A stretch of DNA of 37,144 nt from Candidatus Woesearchaeota archaeon (GTDB lineage: Archaea > Nanobdellota > Nanobdellia > Woesearchaeales > GW2011-AR9). Below the pieces are notes generated by a model, which was not told the origin of the DNA, made no database searches, and saw only the letters and a list, made by a program, of their open reading frames with translations. Positions within the stretch are counted from its first letter, which is position 1. Each line of letters opens with the position of its first letter. Shown one piece after another: positions 9,139-26,545 of this stretch. Made by a program: the position numbers and the translations under genes. Location: NCBI GenBank assembly GCA_018670095.1, contig JABHRR010000062.1:1-37144 (forward strand). The letters are read 5' to 3'.

Positions 9139-9843
9139 TCAATTATTCTCGTTAGTTTCTGCTACTACATTCTCAACAGGTTCCTTCTTCTCAGCAACAA
9201 ATTTAACTTCTTTCAATTTAGTTAATTCTACCAATTTCTTACCAACGGCATCCGTAAACTGTTCAGGAAGTTGCATTGGCAACTTAATTTCTGCTTTTTC
9301 TTCATTAACAGTAACATTAATCTTATCTTTTGGCATTCGCATCGAAGTACTTAAGAAAGTAATAATTTGTTCTTTAGGATCAGTTATCTTCTTATTAACT
9401 TTAACAACATAAGTTACTTCTTTACCAGCCAAAGGATGATTAAAGTTTACAATAACTCTACCACCAGAAACTCTCGTAATAGTTCCAGTTTCACCATCAG
9501 CTTCAATTTGTAAGCCTGGTTGTGGTTGCATATTATGTTCTTTAAATGCAGCGACAGGCATGATTTTCATTTTTTTAATGTCACGTTTACCAAAAGCTTC
9601 TCCTGCAGACAGTTTAACTTCAAATTCTTTACCTAATTCTTGATCAATAAGATTTTTATCTAAGCCAGGCAGGATTTGGTTTTCGCCAACACAAATAGTA
9701 GCGGGACCAAACTTCATTTTCTCTTTATAGAAACCATTGTCTTTAGCAACTTTTTCTTCAGTAGTATCAAATACAGAACCGTCTTCTAATTTACCAGTAT
9801 AATCTAATTCAATGAAATCATTTTCTTTTATTTTTTCAGTCAT
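9139..9843 (-). CDS. FKBP-type (SlyD-like) peptidyl-prolyl cis-trans isomerase
   Basis: DFIELDYTGKLEDGSVFDTT, VNFNHPLAGKEVTYVVKV; likely start MTEKIKEN at 9843. Confidence 0.92.
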   Translation of the reverse strand: MTEKIKENDFIELDYTGKLEDGSVFDTTEEKVAKDNGFYKEKMKFGPATICVGENQILPGLDKNLIDQELGKEFEVKLSAGEAFGKRDIKKMKIMPVAAFKEHNMQPQPGLQIEADGETGTITRVSGGRVIVNFNHPLAGKEVTYVVKVNKKITDPKEQIITFLSTSMRMPKDKINVTVNEEKAEIKLPMQLPEQFTDAVGKKLVELTKLKEVKFVAEKKEPVENVVAETNENN

Positions 9844-9865
9844 TTTTTCTCCTCTTATTTTAAGT

Positions 9866-10141
9866 TTAATCTTTATAAATTTTCTCTCCATTTTGTGGAG
9901 AATTTAAATAATTTCTAATAACCATTTGGTAATCAGTAACCACATTTTGCATTCTTCGACACCCATCCATTACCATCATCATCCCCCCAAGAAGAGTAAT
10001 GGTTTCGGCAACCAACGCATATTCCCCTTGAAAATCAAAAATTTGTTTAGCAAAAATAACAACTCCCCCTACTGCAACCTCGGCAGCATAAGGCAAAAGA
10101 GAACTTTCTTTTTTTACAAGTTTTTCAAGTTTATCTGTCAT
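9866..10141 (-). CDS. Small membrane protein, unknown function
   Basis: 91 aa with hydrophobic segments; start overlaps end of cmk. Confidence 0.65.
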   Translation of the reverse strand: MTDKLEKLVKKESSLLPYAAEVAVGGVVIFAKQIFDFQGEYALVAETITLLGGMMMVMDGCRRMQNVVTDYQMVIRNYLNSPQNGEKIYKD

Positions 10142-10677
10142 TTTTTCTCCTCAATAAACTTAATTATTTTCTCAGCAACTTCTTCTGCTGGAATTTCAGT
10201 TGTATCAACAACTAAATCATAATTATTATGGTCATAATAATTCAAATTATAATAATCCAGATATCTTTTAATCTCAGATGCTCTTCTGTTTTTAATATTT
10301 TCTAATGTTGCATTTAAGTCCGTATTATATTTTTCATCCGTTCGACCTTCTTTAAAGATTCTTTTTGCCGCTTCTTCATCAGTTACATCTAAGAAGATTT
10401 TAATGGAATTAGGAATGAAATGCCAGCCCAATCTTGCATCGATAATGAAGTTGTCTTCATCTTTTCCAAGCTTGATTTGATAGTCATCTAATTCTTTATC
10501 AACAGAACGATCAGTTTCTGCTAACTTACTCAGTTCAAGAAGAGTTACTTCTCGTTTAGCAGCAATCTCACGCATAAAGTCGCCAGTAGAATAATGTTTT
10601 AAATTGAATTTCTGAACTAGAATCTTTGCCACAGTACTTTTTCCTGAACCCAGAGCACCAGAGATTGTTATTATCAT
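10138..10677 (-). CDS. cmk: Archaeal-type cytidylate kinase
   Basis: P-loop SGALGSGKST, YSTGDFMREIA, FIIDARLGWHF. Confidence 0.87.
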   Translation of the reverse strand: MIITISGALGSGKSTVAKILVQKFNLKHYSTGDFMREIAAKREVTLLELSKLAETDRSVDKELDDYQIKLGKDEDNFIIDARLGWHFIPNSIKIFLDVTDEEAAKRIFKEGRTDEKYNTDLNATLENIKNRRASEIKRYLDYYNLNYYDHNNYDLVVDTTEIPAEEVAEKIIKFIEEKK

Positions 10678-14309: not shown

Positions 14310-14990
14310 TCAATCAAATAAATATGTTGGATGTTCTGTTACTTGCCAGGATTCACCATCGAAGTTTGCTTCATCAACTTGATTTAATTTTTCTCTATCT
14401 AAACCAGAATATTTTCTAAAGTTAAAATTACGATAATTCCAGATAGTGAAATCTCTTCTTTTCTTTGATTTCAAATTATGTTCTAATCCCATATGTCCTG
14501 CACCATATACCATACCAATCTTAGGTTTTTCTTTCCCAGAGATTTCTCTAACTCTTGGAACAACAAACTCTTCAATATTTCTAGCGTTAGTTGCATTTCT
14601 TGCTTCAATAAGTGAGGTTTGAGTTAATAAAGAATAAGATGAGACTAATTGACTGATAGTATTATTAATAGGGGATTTTGATAAAGAAAAATAAACCAAA
14701 GGCAAATATATTGGAGAACCAACTACTTCAGTAAGAACACTAAATAGAAGATTACTAACATCGACATCAGTTCCAAAAACAGGAACCTGATTATTTTTAC
14801 AAAAATCTAAAGGCATTTGATATTGAGGATCATCACCACCAAAAAGATAATCGCCTAATTTATATCCACTGGTTTCAATTATCATAGAATCAATCCCTTC
14901 AAAGATAGAGACTTGAGTATTTCTAGCTTCATGAGTACTTAACTGTAAGACATAATCTGCATTATCTGTAGAGAATAATCTATACGCCAT
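14310..14990 (-). CDS. TraB/TIKI-like protein (tentative)
   Basis: LSTHEARNTQVSIFEGIDSMIIETSG, ARNATNARNIEEF, GMVYGAGHMGLEHNL resemble TraB motifs; likely start MAYRLF at 14990. Confidence 0.5.
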   Translation of the reverse strand: MAYRLFSTDNADYVLQLSTHEARNTQVSIFEGIDSMIIETSGYKLGDYLFGGDDPQYQMPLDFCKNNQVPVFGTDVDVSNLLFSVLTEVVGSPIYLPLVYFSLSKSPINNTISQLVSSYSLLTQTSLIEARNATNARNIEEFVVPRVREISGKEKPKIGMVYGAGHMGLEHNLKSKKRRDFTIWNYRNFNFRKYSGLDREKLNQVDEANFDGESWQVTEHPTYLFD

Positions 14991-15609
14991 CTTTCTTCCC
15001 CTTAGCTTTCTTCTTAGCAACTTTTCTAGCAATATGAATTGGTTCCGGCATCTTATGTGGGAACTGGATAGTTTTAGAAACAATGTTTAATGTTGATCCT
15101 AAAGTAATTAAATGTCCAGGGGCAACGTAAACCGGATTAGCATGTTCTCTGGTTTTAATTTCAAAACCAACATGATCACGTTGATCAAATATTTTTCCGT
15201 TTTCAACTTTACCGAAAGGTAATTTTTGCGTTACACCAATGGTAGGTTTGTTTAACGCCAATCCCAGATGGGCGGCCATGCCAAACTTTCGCGGATGGTT
15301 AACGCCTAGCCCGTTAACTAAAATAACGTCCGGTTCTTCATCTAACAAATTATATGCTTCAATAATTGCCGGCATTTCTCGATATGCTTGAAACCCTGCT
15401 CGATATGGTAACGGATTTGATAAGGAATAAGTTTTCTTTTCAACAAATTCTAAAGAAGGATATTTACAAACAACAACAGCAGCAAGAACACTATTCTCAG
15501 TTGGAACACAATCTATTCCTGCAATAGTTTTCACTTTATCGAAATCGTCATGCAGTTGTATTTTTCTAGCAAGTTTTGCTTGCTCTCTCTTTAGTTCGTA
15601 TAAGTCCAT
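14980..15609 (-). CDS. nfi: Endonuclease V homologue
   Basis: GIDCV, PYRAGFQAYREMPAI, NGLGVNHPRKFGMAAHLGL, PTIGVTQK; likely start MDLYELK at 15609. Confidence 0.85.
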   Translation of the reverse strand: MDLYELKREQAKLARKIQLHDDFDKVKTIAGIDCVPTENSVLAAVVVCKYPSLEFVEKKTYSLSNPLPYRAGFQAYREMPAIIEAYNLLDEEPDVILVNGLGVNHPRKFGMAAHLGLALNKPTIGVTQKLPFGKVENGKIFDQRDHVGFEIKTREHANPVYVAPGHLITLGSTLNIVSKTIQFPHKMPEPIHIARKVAKKKAKGKKDGV

Positions 15610-15610
15610 T

Positions 15611-16354
15611 TTATCTGAATTCCTCTCTTCGTGGATTGTATGCTTTCCAAAGTTCAAAATCTTGAGTTTCAGAAGGAGCAACAATATCACTAATCCCATT
15701 TTTTACGACAACTTGATACCAAGAATAAATTTTTGTCACAAAACTTTTAAAGTCTTGAGTATAAAAGTGTTTGATGTCAATTCCAGTAATAACACTGTTA
15801 TTATAGACTAAATCGTCAGACCATTTATCAGCACGAATTCCATCAATAAAAAGACATTCTCCGGCATGATTATTTTGATTCATATATTTTGTATTTTCTA
15901 AAGCAAACAAACGAGGATTATGTCCAATACCAGGAAAATCTGATTCAGCAACATTAAGAAAATCAAATTGGTAATAAAGTGCGGGATTGGCATCCATAGT
16001 TTGTTTTAAACTAGCAAAATCGTCTTTAGTCAATCTTTCATCTGCATCTAGAACAAAAGCTTTTGAAGTCTGTACTTGTTGAAGAGAAAAGTTCCTGGCA
16101 TCAGCATAGCCTTGAAATGGATGATCTAAAACTGTTAAGTTAGGATATCTCGCTTCTAATTCTTCCAGAGTTTCTCGAGTACCATCTTTTGATCCAGTGT
16201 CAACGATAACTGCTTCTTCAACAAATGGAACTGTGCTTTCAATAAAGTCAATAATACCACCGGCAGGATTCATCATTTCATCTCGCACGATAGCAGCAAG
16301 ACTTACGTCTGGCAGAACTGTTTGTGGGGTTGCTATTGCTATATTTGATTCCAT
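15611..16354 (-). CDS. Glycosyltransferase family 2
   Basis: SLAAIVRDEM, VIVDTGSKDGTRE, FVLDADERLT. Confidence 0.88.
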   Translation of the reverse strand: MESNIAIATPQTVLPDVSLAAIVRDEMMNPAGGIIDFIESTVPFVEEAVIVDTGSKDGTRETLEELEARYPNLTVLDHPFQGYADARNFSLQQVQTSKAFVLDADERLTKDDFASLKQTMDANPALYYQFDFLNVAESDFPGIGHNPRLFALENTKYMNQNNHAGECLFIDGIRADKWSDDLVYNNSVITGIDIKHFYTQDFKSFVTKIYSWYQVVVKNGISDIVAPSETQDFELWKAYNPRREEFR

Positions 16355-18092: not shown

Positions 18093-18911
18093 ATGGACAT
18101 TGAAATAGACTTAACTAAATCCGTAGATGAAAATGCTGGCACGTACTTTAACCTAGCGAAGAAAGCAAAGAAGAAGTTAGCTGGAGCTAAAGAAGCGGTA
18201 GAAATGAGTCAAAAGAAGTTAGAAAAACTACAGCAAGAAGAAGATAAGTTTATGGAAAGAGAAACCAAAAAATTAGAAAAGAAAGAACGGAAAAAAGAAT
18301 GGTACGAAAAGTTTCATTGGTTCATTTCTTCAGAAGATTTTCTTTGCATCGGCGGGAAAGATGCTACTTCCAATGAAATTGTGATCAAGAAACATACAGA
18401 TAAAGATGATTTAGTATTTCATACTGATATGGCTGGTTCGCCATTCTTTGTAATTAAAAACGGACAAGAAGCTACTGAAATTACCATTGAAGAAACTGCC
18501 CAGGCAGTAGGGGTTTATTCAAAAGCGTGGAAACTTGGCCACACTACAGCAGACGTGTTTTACGTTAAACCAGAACAAGTAAGTAAAGAAGCGCAATCCG
18601 GCGAATACATGAGCAAAGGCAGTTTTATGGTTCGAGGAAAAACAACTTATTTGCATCCAAAATTAGAGTATGCTATTGGTTTATTGAATACTCAGCAGCC
18701 AGGGACTTCTGATGCCCCTTACGACAATGAAGAGATTATTGGTGGGCCAGTTACTGCGATTAAAAAGAGAACAAACAAATTTGTGAAAGTAATTTCTGGA
18801 AAGACGAAGAAATCCTCTTTAGCTAAAAAAATCAGGTCTAAACTGAAAGGTGGCGAGTTAGATGATATTATCAAGTTCTTGCCAGCCGGTGGCGCTGAAA
18901 TTAAGAAGTAA
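18093..18911 (+). CDS. NFACT-R domain protein (C-terminal part of Rqc2/NEMF/FbpA family) with coiled coil, no NFACT-N
   Basis: EWYEKFHWFISSEDFLCIGGKDATSNEIVIKKHTDKDDLVFHTDMAGSPFFVI preceded by Lys/Glu coiled coil. Confidence 0.88.
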   Translation: MDIEIDLTKSVDENAGTYFNLAKKAKKKLAGAKEAVEMSQKKLEKLQQEEDKFMERETKKLEKKERKKEWYEKFHWFISSEDFLCIGGKDATSNEIVIKKHTDKDDLVFHTDMAGSPFFVIKNGQEATEITIEETAQAVGVYSKAWKLGHTTADVFYVKPEQVSKEAQSGEYMSKGSFMVRGKTTYLHPKLEYAIGLLNTQQPGTSDAPYDNEEIIGGPVTAIKKRTNKFVKVISGKTKKSSLAKKIRSKLKGGELDDIIKFLPAGGAEIKK

Positions 18912-19295: not shown

Positions 19296-22200
19296 ATGGA
19301 AACTATTCTTCGAGAATTTGAGTTTAATCAATGGGTAGGCTATATGAACTTAAAAGGGCTGGGAGGATTCTGGATAAAGAATTATATCCATACTTCTTCA
19401 ACTTTAGCATTTCAGCCAGAAGAAAGTGATAAGATTGAGAAAATTATTGAAAAAATAAATAATAGTCCGCACTTAAGAAAACTTAAACATAGGACTGTTG
19501 GTAGCAAATATCCGGTTTTACAACTTGACGTTCCAATCAGACAAATGGGGCCACGGCATTATTCGTTAACCCAGTTAAGAGATCATTTTGTGTGGGCAAA
19601 ATTAGATGACGATCAAAGTCAGAATCAAGATTACAAAAATAAAGGAAAAAGAATATTTGATTATTTGTTAAATAATGAAGGAGCACAAGAACAGATTAAA
19701 AAAATAACTTCTACCAAAGGGCATATTTTAACTATTGACGATTTAAAGAAAGTTTTGTTTAATAGTGCGGTAATGAAAGAATTGCCTTATCACAAACGTA
19801 AACAGCATCGAAATACTATCGAGGAAGTATTATCTTCTTTAGAATTAGGACACCCTTTACGTTCAAGAGTTAAAAAAGATAAAACTACAAAAGTAAATAT
19901 TCCCAGTCCGTTACCTGAAGAATTTATTAAAGGCCATTATGTGGAGTGTGGTGAGATTAATATTGCTCCAGAAGGAAGTATTGTTGAAATTGTAAATGAA
20001 GATTTAATTTCAATCTTAAGATACAGAAAAAGAGTTAACAAATTGGTAGGACTTTATGAAAATAAGATTATTAATTATTTGAAGTTAAGAAAAAGAAAGA
20101 ATACTAAAAGCAATCTTTCTCGGGTCAGAAATGATCTTGAGAGATTTTTCTCAGAAAGTAATGATCAAGATAAAGGTGAACTATTAATCAAAACTGTTGG
20201 TGGGACAATAACTGAAGAAGTCTTAATTGCCAGAAAAAAGTTGTACACAGGAATTGATAGATTAGTTTCTCGGGGAGAAAAGTTGGGTGGTTGTGAAGCA
20301 GTTCCTAACTATGATTATGAAAGAGTAATGTTATCTTTTGAGAAAGATGTTTCTAAACATGTTAAGTATGTCCGGATGCGTAACGATAAAGAAATTAAAA
20401 GAGAAAAAATGTTTATTGTTGACTGGGAAAATTTTGAGTTTGGTACAATTCATGCTGGAACTGTGCAAGGAGCAATGTGTTATCTAGAAAATATGAAAGT
20501 TCTGGGAAGAAGAATTAAATCTCGGGGTAGAATTAGAAAAGACAGATTTAGTGAAACAGTAATTGAAGATTGTTATCCATCTGTTGAAGAAATTATTTCA
20601 GATACCGCAAATGAGATTAATGAAAGTGGAGCTTCAATAATGGTGGCTTATAACGCTTCTTATGATTTCTTAGAACCGAGAAAGTATGGTAAGTTTAGAA
20701 TTGGTAGTCTTAACCGAGAACCGAGAAAAGTTTCTACGGTGCCTTTCTTTGAACGAGTAGGAATTCCTGGTCGAGAAGTATTAGATCCGTTAAGAGCGGC
20801 AAAGGCGCAGTATGGAGAGATATTACCTAACTGTAAGTTGGTTGCCATTTCCAGTAAACTAAGCGAGGAAGAGAACTTTGGGATAGAGGAAGACGAATTA
20901 GGAAAGATTATTAATTATCGGCACGGAAGAGAAATGGAAATTGGGAGACGAACAGGTAATTGGGATCATCTAAGCAAAGATACGGTTAGCATTTTAGAAA
21001 AGTTTTCTGGTCAAAAGATTAATGAGATTGAAGATTTAGAAGCTGCTGCGGGAGAATTGCAATGTTATTATGCAGACACAGATTTAGAGAAGTTAATTAA
21101 AATAATTCAATCTGAAAGACACGATAAAATTCTGAAAGATGTTAGTTTTATGAGCGGAGTTTTTAGGGTTGATCCTTTTCTTTTGTACCATGATCCAAAA
21201 CGGGTTGATCGGTTTTTGAACAGGGCCTATTTTGAAAAGAATGGTACTTGGCGTTCAGAGATGATGCCCCGTTTTGATAATATTGTTAAAGCTGAACAAA
21301 GGGCAAGAAATTATTATCAGAGACATAAAAGTAAACGTTTTCCTAAACAAAAAGAGGTAGGTTTCTTTAAAGACGTTTACAAGGTTCACATTCCTTTGGG
21401 AAGATTTTTCAGAGATGAGATAAGTTCATTTATGAAATCAATGTCAAATAAAAAAGAAGATTATAGTCATCTGGCAAAGGAAATGTTTGAATATGTTGAT
21501 TCTCATCAGGATGATAAATTGAGAAGTTTCTTTTTGTCTAAATATGAGGATGCGGTTTTTGAATGGCCACTTAAAGATTATACATTTTACAAGTACACTA
21601 AATTCCGTTATCAAAAACTTAAAAAAAATCATGAAATTGAAAGTGGTGAAACTTTAGATGACAGTAATGTTAGTTTTTTTAGTATGATTTATAATCAGTT
21701 GAAAGCTGTAGCAACAAAAAAAAATGATGTCTTTTTACTAAAAAAATTGAGAAGTTCTAACTTAGATCAAGATAGTCTCAAATCTGCATTAAAATATTAT
21801 GGCACTGATTTTGTAGAAGAGTTAGGTTTAGAGAATAAAACATTACAAGCGTTGTTTAACCTCTGGTTAAGTAAACGTAATCAGGAGAATAGAATTTCTG
21901 CAGTTTACGGAATTGATACTGATGAATTTGAAAGAAAGTTTGACCAGGTTTATGAAACGATTAATAATTATTTGGAAGAGAAGGGTTTATCTCTGATTCA
22001 TTCACAGAACAATGTTTTGTATTTGAAAGGAGATAAAGATAAGATAGCTAGTAGGGATGCGCCATTCATTTTGGTAGATGAAATTGAAAATGTTTTTGTT
22101 GCTGAACATTCATCTGAAAGAAGGAAAGATCAAAGTAAAAGTGGTAAAAAGATATATTATCCTCGTTGCGGTGCTTGGGAAGGGATTAAAAGTGGAGAAG

Positions 22201-22817
22201 ACCCGATGTATAATTTAAACATTTTTGAAATGGAATATTATAATAATTATTTAGATGATATTATGGTGGTGGGGGGGGAAAAAGCGGTTGAGAATTTATA
22301 TGTGGGTTTGGATACTTTGGCTAGTGAGAACATTGACAAACACGACTTATTATGGTACAGTAAAAATAAAGAACAGTATGTTGGTTTTATGGATGAAGAG
22401 AAAATTACTTTTTGTGATTGGGATTTAGAGAAAATTCTTTTTGATGAGAATAAAGAAAAACATTATTTCTTAATTGAAGTAGAAGGGAAAAAGAGAAGGG
22501 AAAGATTTTACATTGAACAGGAAGACAGTAAGTTTTTCTATATTGAGAAAAGTAAAAGACGAGTTGAGGATGATTTTGGTAAAGGCAGTTATGTAGAGGT
22601 TGAGAAGAAAATTTATGTTTTGCCTTTGGATGATTTTCAACCAGATTGGGAAATGTATAATGATAGAATGGGGGAGAGGGCAGAAATATTTCTTAATCCT
22701 TTAATCGGAAAAGAAGATGCTGAAATGTTGGTTGAGAATGCTTTAAATTTAGAAAGCCCACCTTTATTTGATTGGATTAAGAAAAAGTTTGAACCTAAGA
22801 AAGGAATGTTATTGTGA
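19296..22817 (+). CDS. Large protein with DEDDy 3'-5' exonuclease motifs and apparent degenerate family B DNA polymerase co-linearity
   Basis: VDWENFE (20421-20429), YNASYDF (20649-20669), YADTD (21069-21083); PolB motif C-like GLSLIHSQNNVLYLKG (21984 onward) with QNN in place of DTD. Confidence 0.65.
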   Translation: METILREFEFNQWVGYMNLKGLGGFWIKNYIHTSSTLAFQPEESDKIEKIIEKINNSPHLRKLKHRTVGSKYPVLQLDVPIRQMGPRHYSLTQLRDHFVWAKLDDDQSQNQDYKNKGKRIFDYLLNNEGAQEQIKKITSTKGHILTIDDLKKVLFNSAVMKELPYHKRKQHRNTIEEVLSSLELGHPLRSRVKKDKTTKVNIPSPLPEEFIKGHYVECGEINIAPEGSIVEIVNEDLISILRYRKRVNKLVGLYENKIINYLKLRKRKNTKSNLSRVRNDLERFFSESNDQDKGELLIKTVGGTITEEVLIARKKLYTGIDRLVSRGEKLGGCEAVPNYDYERVMLSFEKDVSKHVKYVRMRNDKEIKREKMFIVDWENFEFGTIHAGTVQGAMCYLENMKVLGRRIKSRGRIRKDRFSETVIEDCYPSVEEIISDTANEINESGASIMVAYNASYDFLEPRKYGKFRIGSLNREPRKVSTVPFFERVGIPGREVLDPLRAAKAQYGEILPNCKLVAISSKLSEEENFGIEEDELGKIINYRHGREMEIGRRTGNWDHLSKDTVSILEKFSGQKINEIEDLEAAAGELQCYYADTDLEKLIKIIQSERHDKILKDVSFMSGVFRVDPFLLYHDPKRVDRFLNRAYFEKNGTWRSEMMPRFDNIVKAEQRARNYYQRHKSKRFPKQKEVGFFKDVYKVHIPLGRFFRDEISSFMKSMSNKKEDYSHLAKEMFEYVDSHQDDKLRSFFLSKYEDAVFEWPLKDYTFYKYTKFRYQKLKKNHEIESGETLDDSNVSFFSMIYNQLKAVATKKNDVFLLKKLRSSNLDQDSLKSALKYYGTDFVEELGLENKTLQALFNLWLSKRNQENRISAVYGIDTDEFERKFDQVYETINNYLEEKGLSLIHSQNNVLYLKGDKDKIASRDAPFILVDEIENVFVAEHSSERRKDQSKSGKKIYYPRCGAWEGIKSGEDPMYNLNIFEMEYYNNYLDDIMVVGGEKAVENLYVGLDTLASENIDKHDLLWYSKNKEQYVGFMDEEKITFCDWDLEKILFDENKEKHYFLIEVEGKKRRERFYIEQEDSKFFYIEKSKRRVEDDFGKGSYVEVEKKIYVLPLDDFQPDWEMYNDRMGERAEIFLNPLIGKEDAEMLVENALNLESPPLFDWIKKKFEPKKGMLL

Positions 22818-23351
22818 GTTTGAAATCACCACAATTCCTCGTTCTTTGTCATCAAATTTGTCTGAGATTGCTTCTGAAAGTTTGTTTATAGAAGTTTTCC
22901 AATAAGATTTATCGCCATAAGAAGGATCACAGATTTCTAATTCATCATTTTCAATGGCAGAAATTAAAGAGAAATGGCCCCAATCTTTTTCTGGATCATA
23001 AGCAGCTCTTTTGAAGTTTACAATAATATCGTTATTTTTTTCTAAGTTGTTGGTGATTAATTCTTTGAAATCTTTAATTTGAGTAGACTTAATAATTTCT
23101 AACTTCAATCCTTTCTCTTTAAGAAAATCTGCTGCTTTAGAAAATTCTTCTAAACGCAAACCCGCATCATCTTCACTAACTTCGTACTCGTGGGTGAACA
23201 AATGGATATTTTTGTTCTTTATTCTTGCTCCGAGAAGTTGAGCTAGTTCTTCCTGTTCTACCCAATGCCCTCTTCTGAAGAGAACCATCTGTAAACTGGT
23301 TGGGCCACAAAAATGTGCTTTCTGAACAAGATGTTTATAATTTATTTTCAT
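22809..23351 (-). CDS. Peptidase C39-like (papain-like fold) protein
   Basis: HFCGPTSLQMVL, DWGHFSLISAI, EICDPSYGDKSYW: Cys/His/Asp arrangement. Confidence 0.7.
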   Translation of the reverse strand: MKINYKHLVQKAHFCGPTSLQMVLFRRGHWVEQEELAQLLGARIKNKNIHLFTHEYEVSEDDAGLRLEEFSKAADFLKEKGLKLEIIKSTQIKDFKELITNNLEKNNDIIVNFKRAAYDPEKDWGHFSLISAIENDELEICDPSYGDKSYWKTSINKLSEAISDKFDDKERGIVVISNSQ

Positions 23352-26182: not shown

Positions 26183-26545
26183 TTATTCCTCAGGTTTCTT
26201 CAAATGAAGAGCTTCTTCAACTTTTTCAACTACGTGATGAACTTTCTCACCAAAACTTTCGTGTGCTTCTGGCGTAGGTTCTGCAGCTGGTTCAGCAGGA
26301 GTTTCTTCTTCAGTTGCAGGTTCTTCTGCAGGAGTTTCTTCTTCAGCTGGTTCTTCTGCTGGAGTTTCTTCTTCAGCTGGTTCTTCTGCTGGAGTTTCTT
26401 CTGCAGGAGTTTCTTCTGCAGGAGCTTCTTCTTCAGGAGCAGATTCTTCTTCTGGAGTTGTTTCTTCTTGTGTTTCTTCTACAGGAGCTTCTTCTGCAGG
26501 AGCTTCAGTTTGTTCTTCTTCAGTTGTTTTTTGTTCTTCTTCCAT
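26183..26545 (-). CDS. Glu/Pro/Ala/Thr-rich low-complexity acidic repeat protein
   Basis: Tandem EETPAEEPAE repeats; structured C-terminus ESFGEKVHHVVEKVEEALHLKKPEE. Confidence 0.7.
   Translation of the reverse strand: MEEEQKTTEEEQTEAPAEEAPVEETQEETTPEEESAPEEEAPAEETPAEETPAEEPAEEETPAEEPAEEETPAEEPATEEETPAEPAAEPTPEAHESFGEKVHHVVEKVEEALHLKKPEE
26311..26400. repeat. 30-bp tandem repeat, two perfect copies plus one degenerate
   Basis: CTTCAGCTGGTTCTTCTGCTGGAGTTTCTT at 26341-26370 and 26371-26400; near copy 26311-26340. Confidence 0.85.

Follow-up and report, generated by a model that had tools for sequence, protein, structure and literature searches.

A woesearchaeal protein family derived from family B DNA polymerases, with lost polymerase motifs and a conserved DEDDy exonuclease site

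Introduction

Family B DNA polymerases (PolBs) in which an active site has been lost or altered are well established, and those known have given up either the exonuclease, as in PolB2, Pol alpha and Pol zeta, or both sites, as in the C-terminal half of Pol epsilon. In the latter, a dead PolB body is kept by selection, but it is fused to an active PolB. PolB2 (Dpo2, or G2 in bacteria) is an accessory and patchily distributed paralogue with an altered polymerase site; it has lost its exonuclease motifs (ExoI and ExoIII) while retaining motif A and one of the motif C aspartates (PMC7544198), and its gene shares an operon with arCOG07300 and with a RadA-like gene that is inactive (PMC4104785). A nuclease that is kept without its polymerase, or that matters more than the polymerase, is represented by bacterial PolX1 and by solo Pol I nuclease domains (PMC12926913), although these belong to other polymerase families and have other nuclease folds.

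Here we describe a gene from a Candidatus Woesearchaeota archaeon, found in a stretch of 37,144 nucleotides (the window; contig JABHRR010000062.1, order Woesearchaeales), the product of which shows the reverse of the PolB2 pattern and which, unlike the C-terminal half of Pol epsilon, has an intact exonuclease site and is a stand-alone protein. With archaeal PolB3, represented by the 825-aa PolB of the same genome, this dead PolB shares the domain order, a DEDDy exonuclease and a palm/thumb-like region, for which PolB3 is the best profile match; it differs in being devoid of motifs A, B and C, in having 100-200 aa more before the exonuclease, and in its tail. The active B7 polymerases found in parts of the order (bacterial Pol II-like; the B7 label is assigned here from a match to E. 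coli Pol II) have the active exonuclease domain most often matched in our genome searches, and their QKTLF-type tail resembles the QxxLF tail of many dead members; they have active polymerase motifs, however, and no C-terminal profile match with the dead PolB was detected. We found no description of an exonuclease-only PolB family in these archaea in the open-access literature searched, which is not proof that none exists.

Results

The source genome is 1.2 Mb in size and 84% complete, and the window corresponds to its contig 14. A genome of the same genus codes for an orthologue of equal length, 79% identical and with the same flanking genes. When the window protein was used as a single sequence against Pfam, NCBIfam and, with phmmer, the PDB, nothing relevant was returned, so that its relationship to PolB is missed by standard annotation; moreover, since neither Pfam nor NCBIfam recognises the polymerase part of the window protein, members of the family are probably annotated as hypothetical proteins. 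The features of the gene are collected in Table 1. An earlier, sequence-only reading had placed DWE at 20421-20429, QNN at 22005-22013, and YNASYD and YADTD where the table has them, and translation reproduces all four positions exactly.

Table 1. Features of the dead-PolB gene, in window coordinates
Feature	Position	Strand	Basis
Dead-PolB paralogue gene, 1173 aa	19296..22817	+	ORF; same-genus orthologue; dN/dS
Probable PolB N-terminal domain, aa 1-110	19296..19625	+	Model of the L097 relative
Helical insert before the exonuclease, aa 111-360	19626..20375	+	Part family-wide, about 100 aa lineage-specific
DEDDy 3'-5' exonuclease domain, aa 361-605	20376..21110	+	Profile match, hhalign
ExoI, VDWE, putative catalytic Asp and Glu	20418..20429	+	44-member alignment
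ExoII, YNASYD, putative catalytic Asp	20649..20666	+	44-member alignment
ExoIII, YADTD (YxxxD), putative catalytic Tyr and Asp	21069..21083	+	44-member alignment
Motif A equivalent, DVYKVHIPLG replacing xIxxxDFxSLYP, catalytic Asp lost	21372..21401	+	hhalign, alignment columns
Motif C equivalent, LIHSQNN replacing VIYADTD, catalytic Asps lost	21993..22013	+	hhalign
Helical C-terminal region, corresponding to the PolB thumb end	22644..22814	+	Ends KKGMLL

The N-terminal segment is probably a PolB N-terminal domain, given the beta-beta-beta-beta-alpha-beta-beta-alpha order seen in the AlphaFold model of a 976-aa relative (L097), which has a pLDDT of 72-93 in this part; the model of the window protein itself is poor there. 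The ExoI Asp is residue 376 of the window protein and residue 177 of the active PolB of the same genome. Thus, the insertion of about 250 aa suggested earlier is roughly right in size; about 100 aa of it, helical, are common to the family and about 100 aa are specific to the window lineage.

A PolB-type DEDDy 3'-5' exonuclease domain is present in the window protein. When 44 family members (30 long-form and 14 short-form sequences) were aligned with active PolBs, the DEDDy columns fell in register with those of the active enzymes and read D in 44/44, E in 43/44, D in 43/44, Y in 44/44 and D in 44/44 members, in a family in which identity is only about 20-40%. In a 17-sequence family alignment with a mean column identity of 24%, four of the seven invariant columns are DEDDy residues and the Glu is nearly invariant; in a separate alignment of the short form, all five are invariant. 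The best matches of the family profile among solved structures are archaeal PolBs, over the exonuclease (E 2.3e-9), and hhalign of the family against the active PolBs of the order gave E 4e-14 at a probability of 98%. By these alignments the DEDDy set of the window protein is far beyond chance, and the family is likely to have nuclease activity.

In contrast to the exonuclease residues, motifs A, B and C were found by pattern search in none of the 44 family members, as against 15 of 15 active controls, in keeping with the earlier remark that no DFxSLYPSI motif A is visible in the window protein. The region following ExoIII was compared separately, with the exonuclease left out. Against the same part of the PolB group to which the genome's own enzyme belongs, hhalign scored 34.3 (E 0.002), whereas 60 column-shuffled controls scored 16.4 +/- 2.9 (maximum 27.3) and the reversed alignment 14.0; the likeness of this region to archaeal PolB that had been read from the letters is therefore borne out. 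The same comparison with the B7 group and with the PolB2 group did not rise above the controls. hhalign pairs GFFKDVYKVHIPLG with GLYEDIIIFDFRSLYP and KGLSLIHSQNNVLYL with SGFQVIYADTDSCFLL, a pairing from which it follows that the catalytic aspartates are gone from the dead PolB; QNN falls opposite the motif C aspartates of active PolB, and the equation of FERKFDQ...HSQNNVLYLKG with the helix plus motif C, made before any alignment, agrees with this. The AlphaFold models have a pLDDT of 58.3 (window protein) and 75.9 (L097 relative). For both, the 50 PDB matches listed by Foldseek include only PolB-type polymerases, and the alignments extend over most of the polymerase chain; global TM-scores are low (about 0.2-0.5), which we attribute to uncertain domain placement. 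The profile alignments, together with these models, the confidence of which is moderate to low, identify what follows the exonuclease as a remnant of the PolB palm/thumb. A stand-alone exonuclease of the DnaQ type does not fit, since a PolB body follows the exonuclease according to both hhalign and Foldseek, the predicted folds matching PolB along most of their length and not a stand-alone DnaQ fusion. The DEDDy set, the loss of the motifs and the palm/thumb remnant together uphold the proposal of a polymerase-dead, exonuclease-intact PolB paralogue, and we regard the ancestry from a family B DNA polymerase, with loss of the polymerase motifs, as close to settled.

In a profile search, about 34 of the 359 genomes of the order matched the long form strongly, with a best E of about 2e-20 or lower; the many weaker matches, sorted by reading the sequences, were active PolB exonuclease domains and the shorter form. 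The short form (about 770-840 aa), searched for separately, gave full-scale matches in 11 genomes. The short form is present in a sister genome of the genus (G001), in which the long form was not found. Among 380 genomes drawn from the phylum, a single one outside the order (G406) carried the long form, and a few divergent relatives were found in the class. The distribution is patchy. The suggestion that the protein may be lineage-specific is thus refined: it is not the oddity of one lineage but belongs to a family that occurs throughout the order, and one relative of the long form was detected outside. In a quick tree of the exonuclease, which has many long branches, a branch with SH-aLRT 93 separates all 44 dead forms from the active B3 and B7 polymerases, and a single inactivation event is the likely origin of the family.

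Divergent PF00136 matches were considered as intermediates between active and dead forms, but the eight that were fetched proved to be PolB2-like, with the PolB2 pattern and hence the opposite of that of the dead PolB. Membership of the dead-PolB family in PolB2 is rejected, because exonuclease motifs are kept and motif A and the motif C Asp lost; accordingly, the tie to known inactivated archaeal PolB paralogues that had been drawn earlier does not extend to the PolB2 group. Two PolB2-like polymerases (L132:1159-3612 in G083 and L136:783-3338 in G054) carry a C-terminal extension, PDFICYRHQKFKFVECKLQYESLSDVQKRCI, that by eye resembles a VRR-NUC nuclease domain.

A QxxLF-like motif occurs within the last 22 residues of 16 of 43 members (QIELF, QLSLF, QLEIF, QRRLF, QGVLF and others), whereas 1000 shuffles gave 1.8 on average and never more than 7; the members share ancestry, however, and the true surprise is smaller than the shuffles imply. 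We infer from these sequences that the tails would tether many of the relatives to PCNA. The window protein (ending in KKGMLL) and its orthologue (KKGTLL) are without such a tail.

As to other polymerases, the earlier suggestion to look for an active PolB elsewhere in the genome led to one canonical enzyme, with active motifs. The catalytic domain of the PolD subunit DP2 is also encoded (G000:C19:1114-2022, near a contig start); neither the N-terminal domain of DP2 nor DP1 was found in the assemblies of the window genome (G000) or of G002. That PolD is missing and the dead PolB compensates for it is rejected, as the DP2 catalytic domain is there and the absence in the window genome is an assembly gap. 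With an active PolB and a PolD catalytic domain, polymerisation is covered, and most genomes of the relatives have both PolB and PolD.

The neighbours of the relatives, chosen by eye and confirmed with Pfam, include PCNA, a HhH-GPD glycosylase, RNase HII, SMC, an ERCC4-domain helicase, Topo VI B, RIO kinase and a Toprim protein of the DnaG type. At L055, the PCNA gene is divergent from the dead PolB, and at L052 a Rad50-like AAA_23 ATPase overlaps it on the same strand; several distant members lie near a ribosomal protein S8e gene (identified by eye). No RadA-like gene was recognised in the neighbourhoods read. These settings, the neighbours being chosen by eye, suggest that the family has long been resident in the chromosome and is linked to DNA repair or replication.

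The immediate neighbours in the window, NFACT-R and C39/phytochelatin-like genes, give no pointer to repair. The former (18093-18908, +), upstream of the dead PolB in both genus genomes that carry it, codes for an NFACT-R domain protein without most of the NFACT N-terminal part; the latter (22812-23351, -), which is convergent with the dead PolB and kept beside it in G002, codes for a small protein with phytochelatin synthase and C39 peptidase matches. Elsewhere in the window are a gene for the DNA repair enzyme endonuclease V, a few genes upstream of the dead PolB (14983-15699, -; PF04493, E 1.5e-48), and an ORF for a very acidic 120-aa repeat protein with EETPAEEPAEE repeats (26183-26545, -).

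The window gene is under strong purifying selection. Compared with its orthologue (dS about 1.0), the overall dN/dS is 0.125. The exonuclease has a value of 0.084 and the 195 aa that follow it 0.090; the remainder of the C-terminal half gives 0.13-0.15, and the insert before the exonuclease, the least conserved segment of the gene, 0.17. The low values after the exonuclease indicate that the polymerase body is also under selection, for some purpose.

Discussion

We propose that the window protein serves as an accessory 3'-5' exonuclease built on the body of a dead PolB, acting in repair or in proofreading in trans (probability about 0.6), its activity, substrate and role being deduced from the features above. 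An ancestral family B DNA polymerase would have lost nucleotide addition and kept its proofreading nuclease; the retained polymerase body would most probably bind primer-template or frayed 3' ends, the DEDDy site would trim the 3' strand, and the protein would work beside the active PolB and PolD of the cell. In many relatives the tail would hold the enzyme at PCNA, whereas the window copy, having none, would need another contact. The patchy distribution is not what a general proofreading role predicts. Extended to the whole family, as an order-wide woesearchaeal group of 3'-5' exonucleases that derive from PolB, are often tethered to PCNA and act in trans on the 3' ends made by other polymerases, editing or processing them, the proposal is tentative and, on balance, we would not yet bet on it.

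The sequence-only reading had left the choice between a nuclease and a structural factor of the replisome or of repair. A body that does not polymerise and is nevertheless under purifying selection could be a scaffold with an incidental nuclease, and dead PolB scaffolds are known, as in the C-terminal half of Pol epsilon (PMC7544198). That half is inactive at both sites, however, while here no positions in the family are better conserved than the nuclease residues, and a scaffold would have no need of them; we thus prefer the nuclease and consider the structural alternative improbable.

Slightly less probable still is a nuclease directed against foreign DNA, as part of a defence system or another mobile system. 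The patchy distribution and the fast divergence of the sequences would fit, and a tyrosine recombinase adjoins one relative (L072). Against it, there was no match to defence models, no member was found in phage records or, with the peptide patterns tried, in viral contigs, and several distant members share chromosomal neighbourhoods with housekeeping genes, those for ribosomal protein S8e, Topo VI B and RIO kinase being examples. A viral or phage origin was likewise discarded, the viral-contig scans, the phage search and the defence models all being null.

PolB2 was itself once called inactivated and was later shown to take part in translesion synthesis (PMC7544198, PMC8764526), and a cryptic translesion polymerase whose catalytic residues have been rearranged, an idea put forward for PolB2, might be suspected here too. 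But PolB2 retains motif A (DFSSMYP) and one motif C Asp, also in the eight PolB2-like proteins of the order, whereas the dead-PolB family has neither the motif A Asp nor motif B nor a conserved acid in motif C, and we think this very unlikely. Least credible of all is that the gene is a one-time polymerase in decay or an artefact of assembly: one copy is split over two frames (G036; L020:7862-9256 and 9240-10334) and the match in another contains a stop (G156; L037), both possibly recent losses or assembly errors, but the 1173-aa frame is open, with its orthologue of equal length elsewhere, dN/dS is 0.08-0.17 throughout, and full-length members occur in many independent assemblies.

The reading that we favour is therefore that of an accessory exonuclease. 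A large family in which the polymerase is lost and the exonuclease kept indicates that the function under selection can shift to the proofreading half of a polymerase, and the dead-PolB family offers a concrete candidate for proofreading in trans, or for the repair of 3' ends, in archaea with small genomes.
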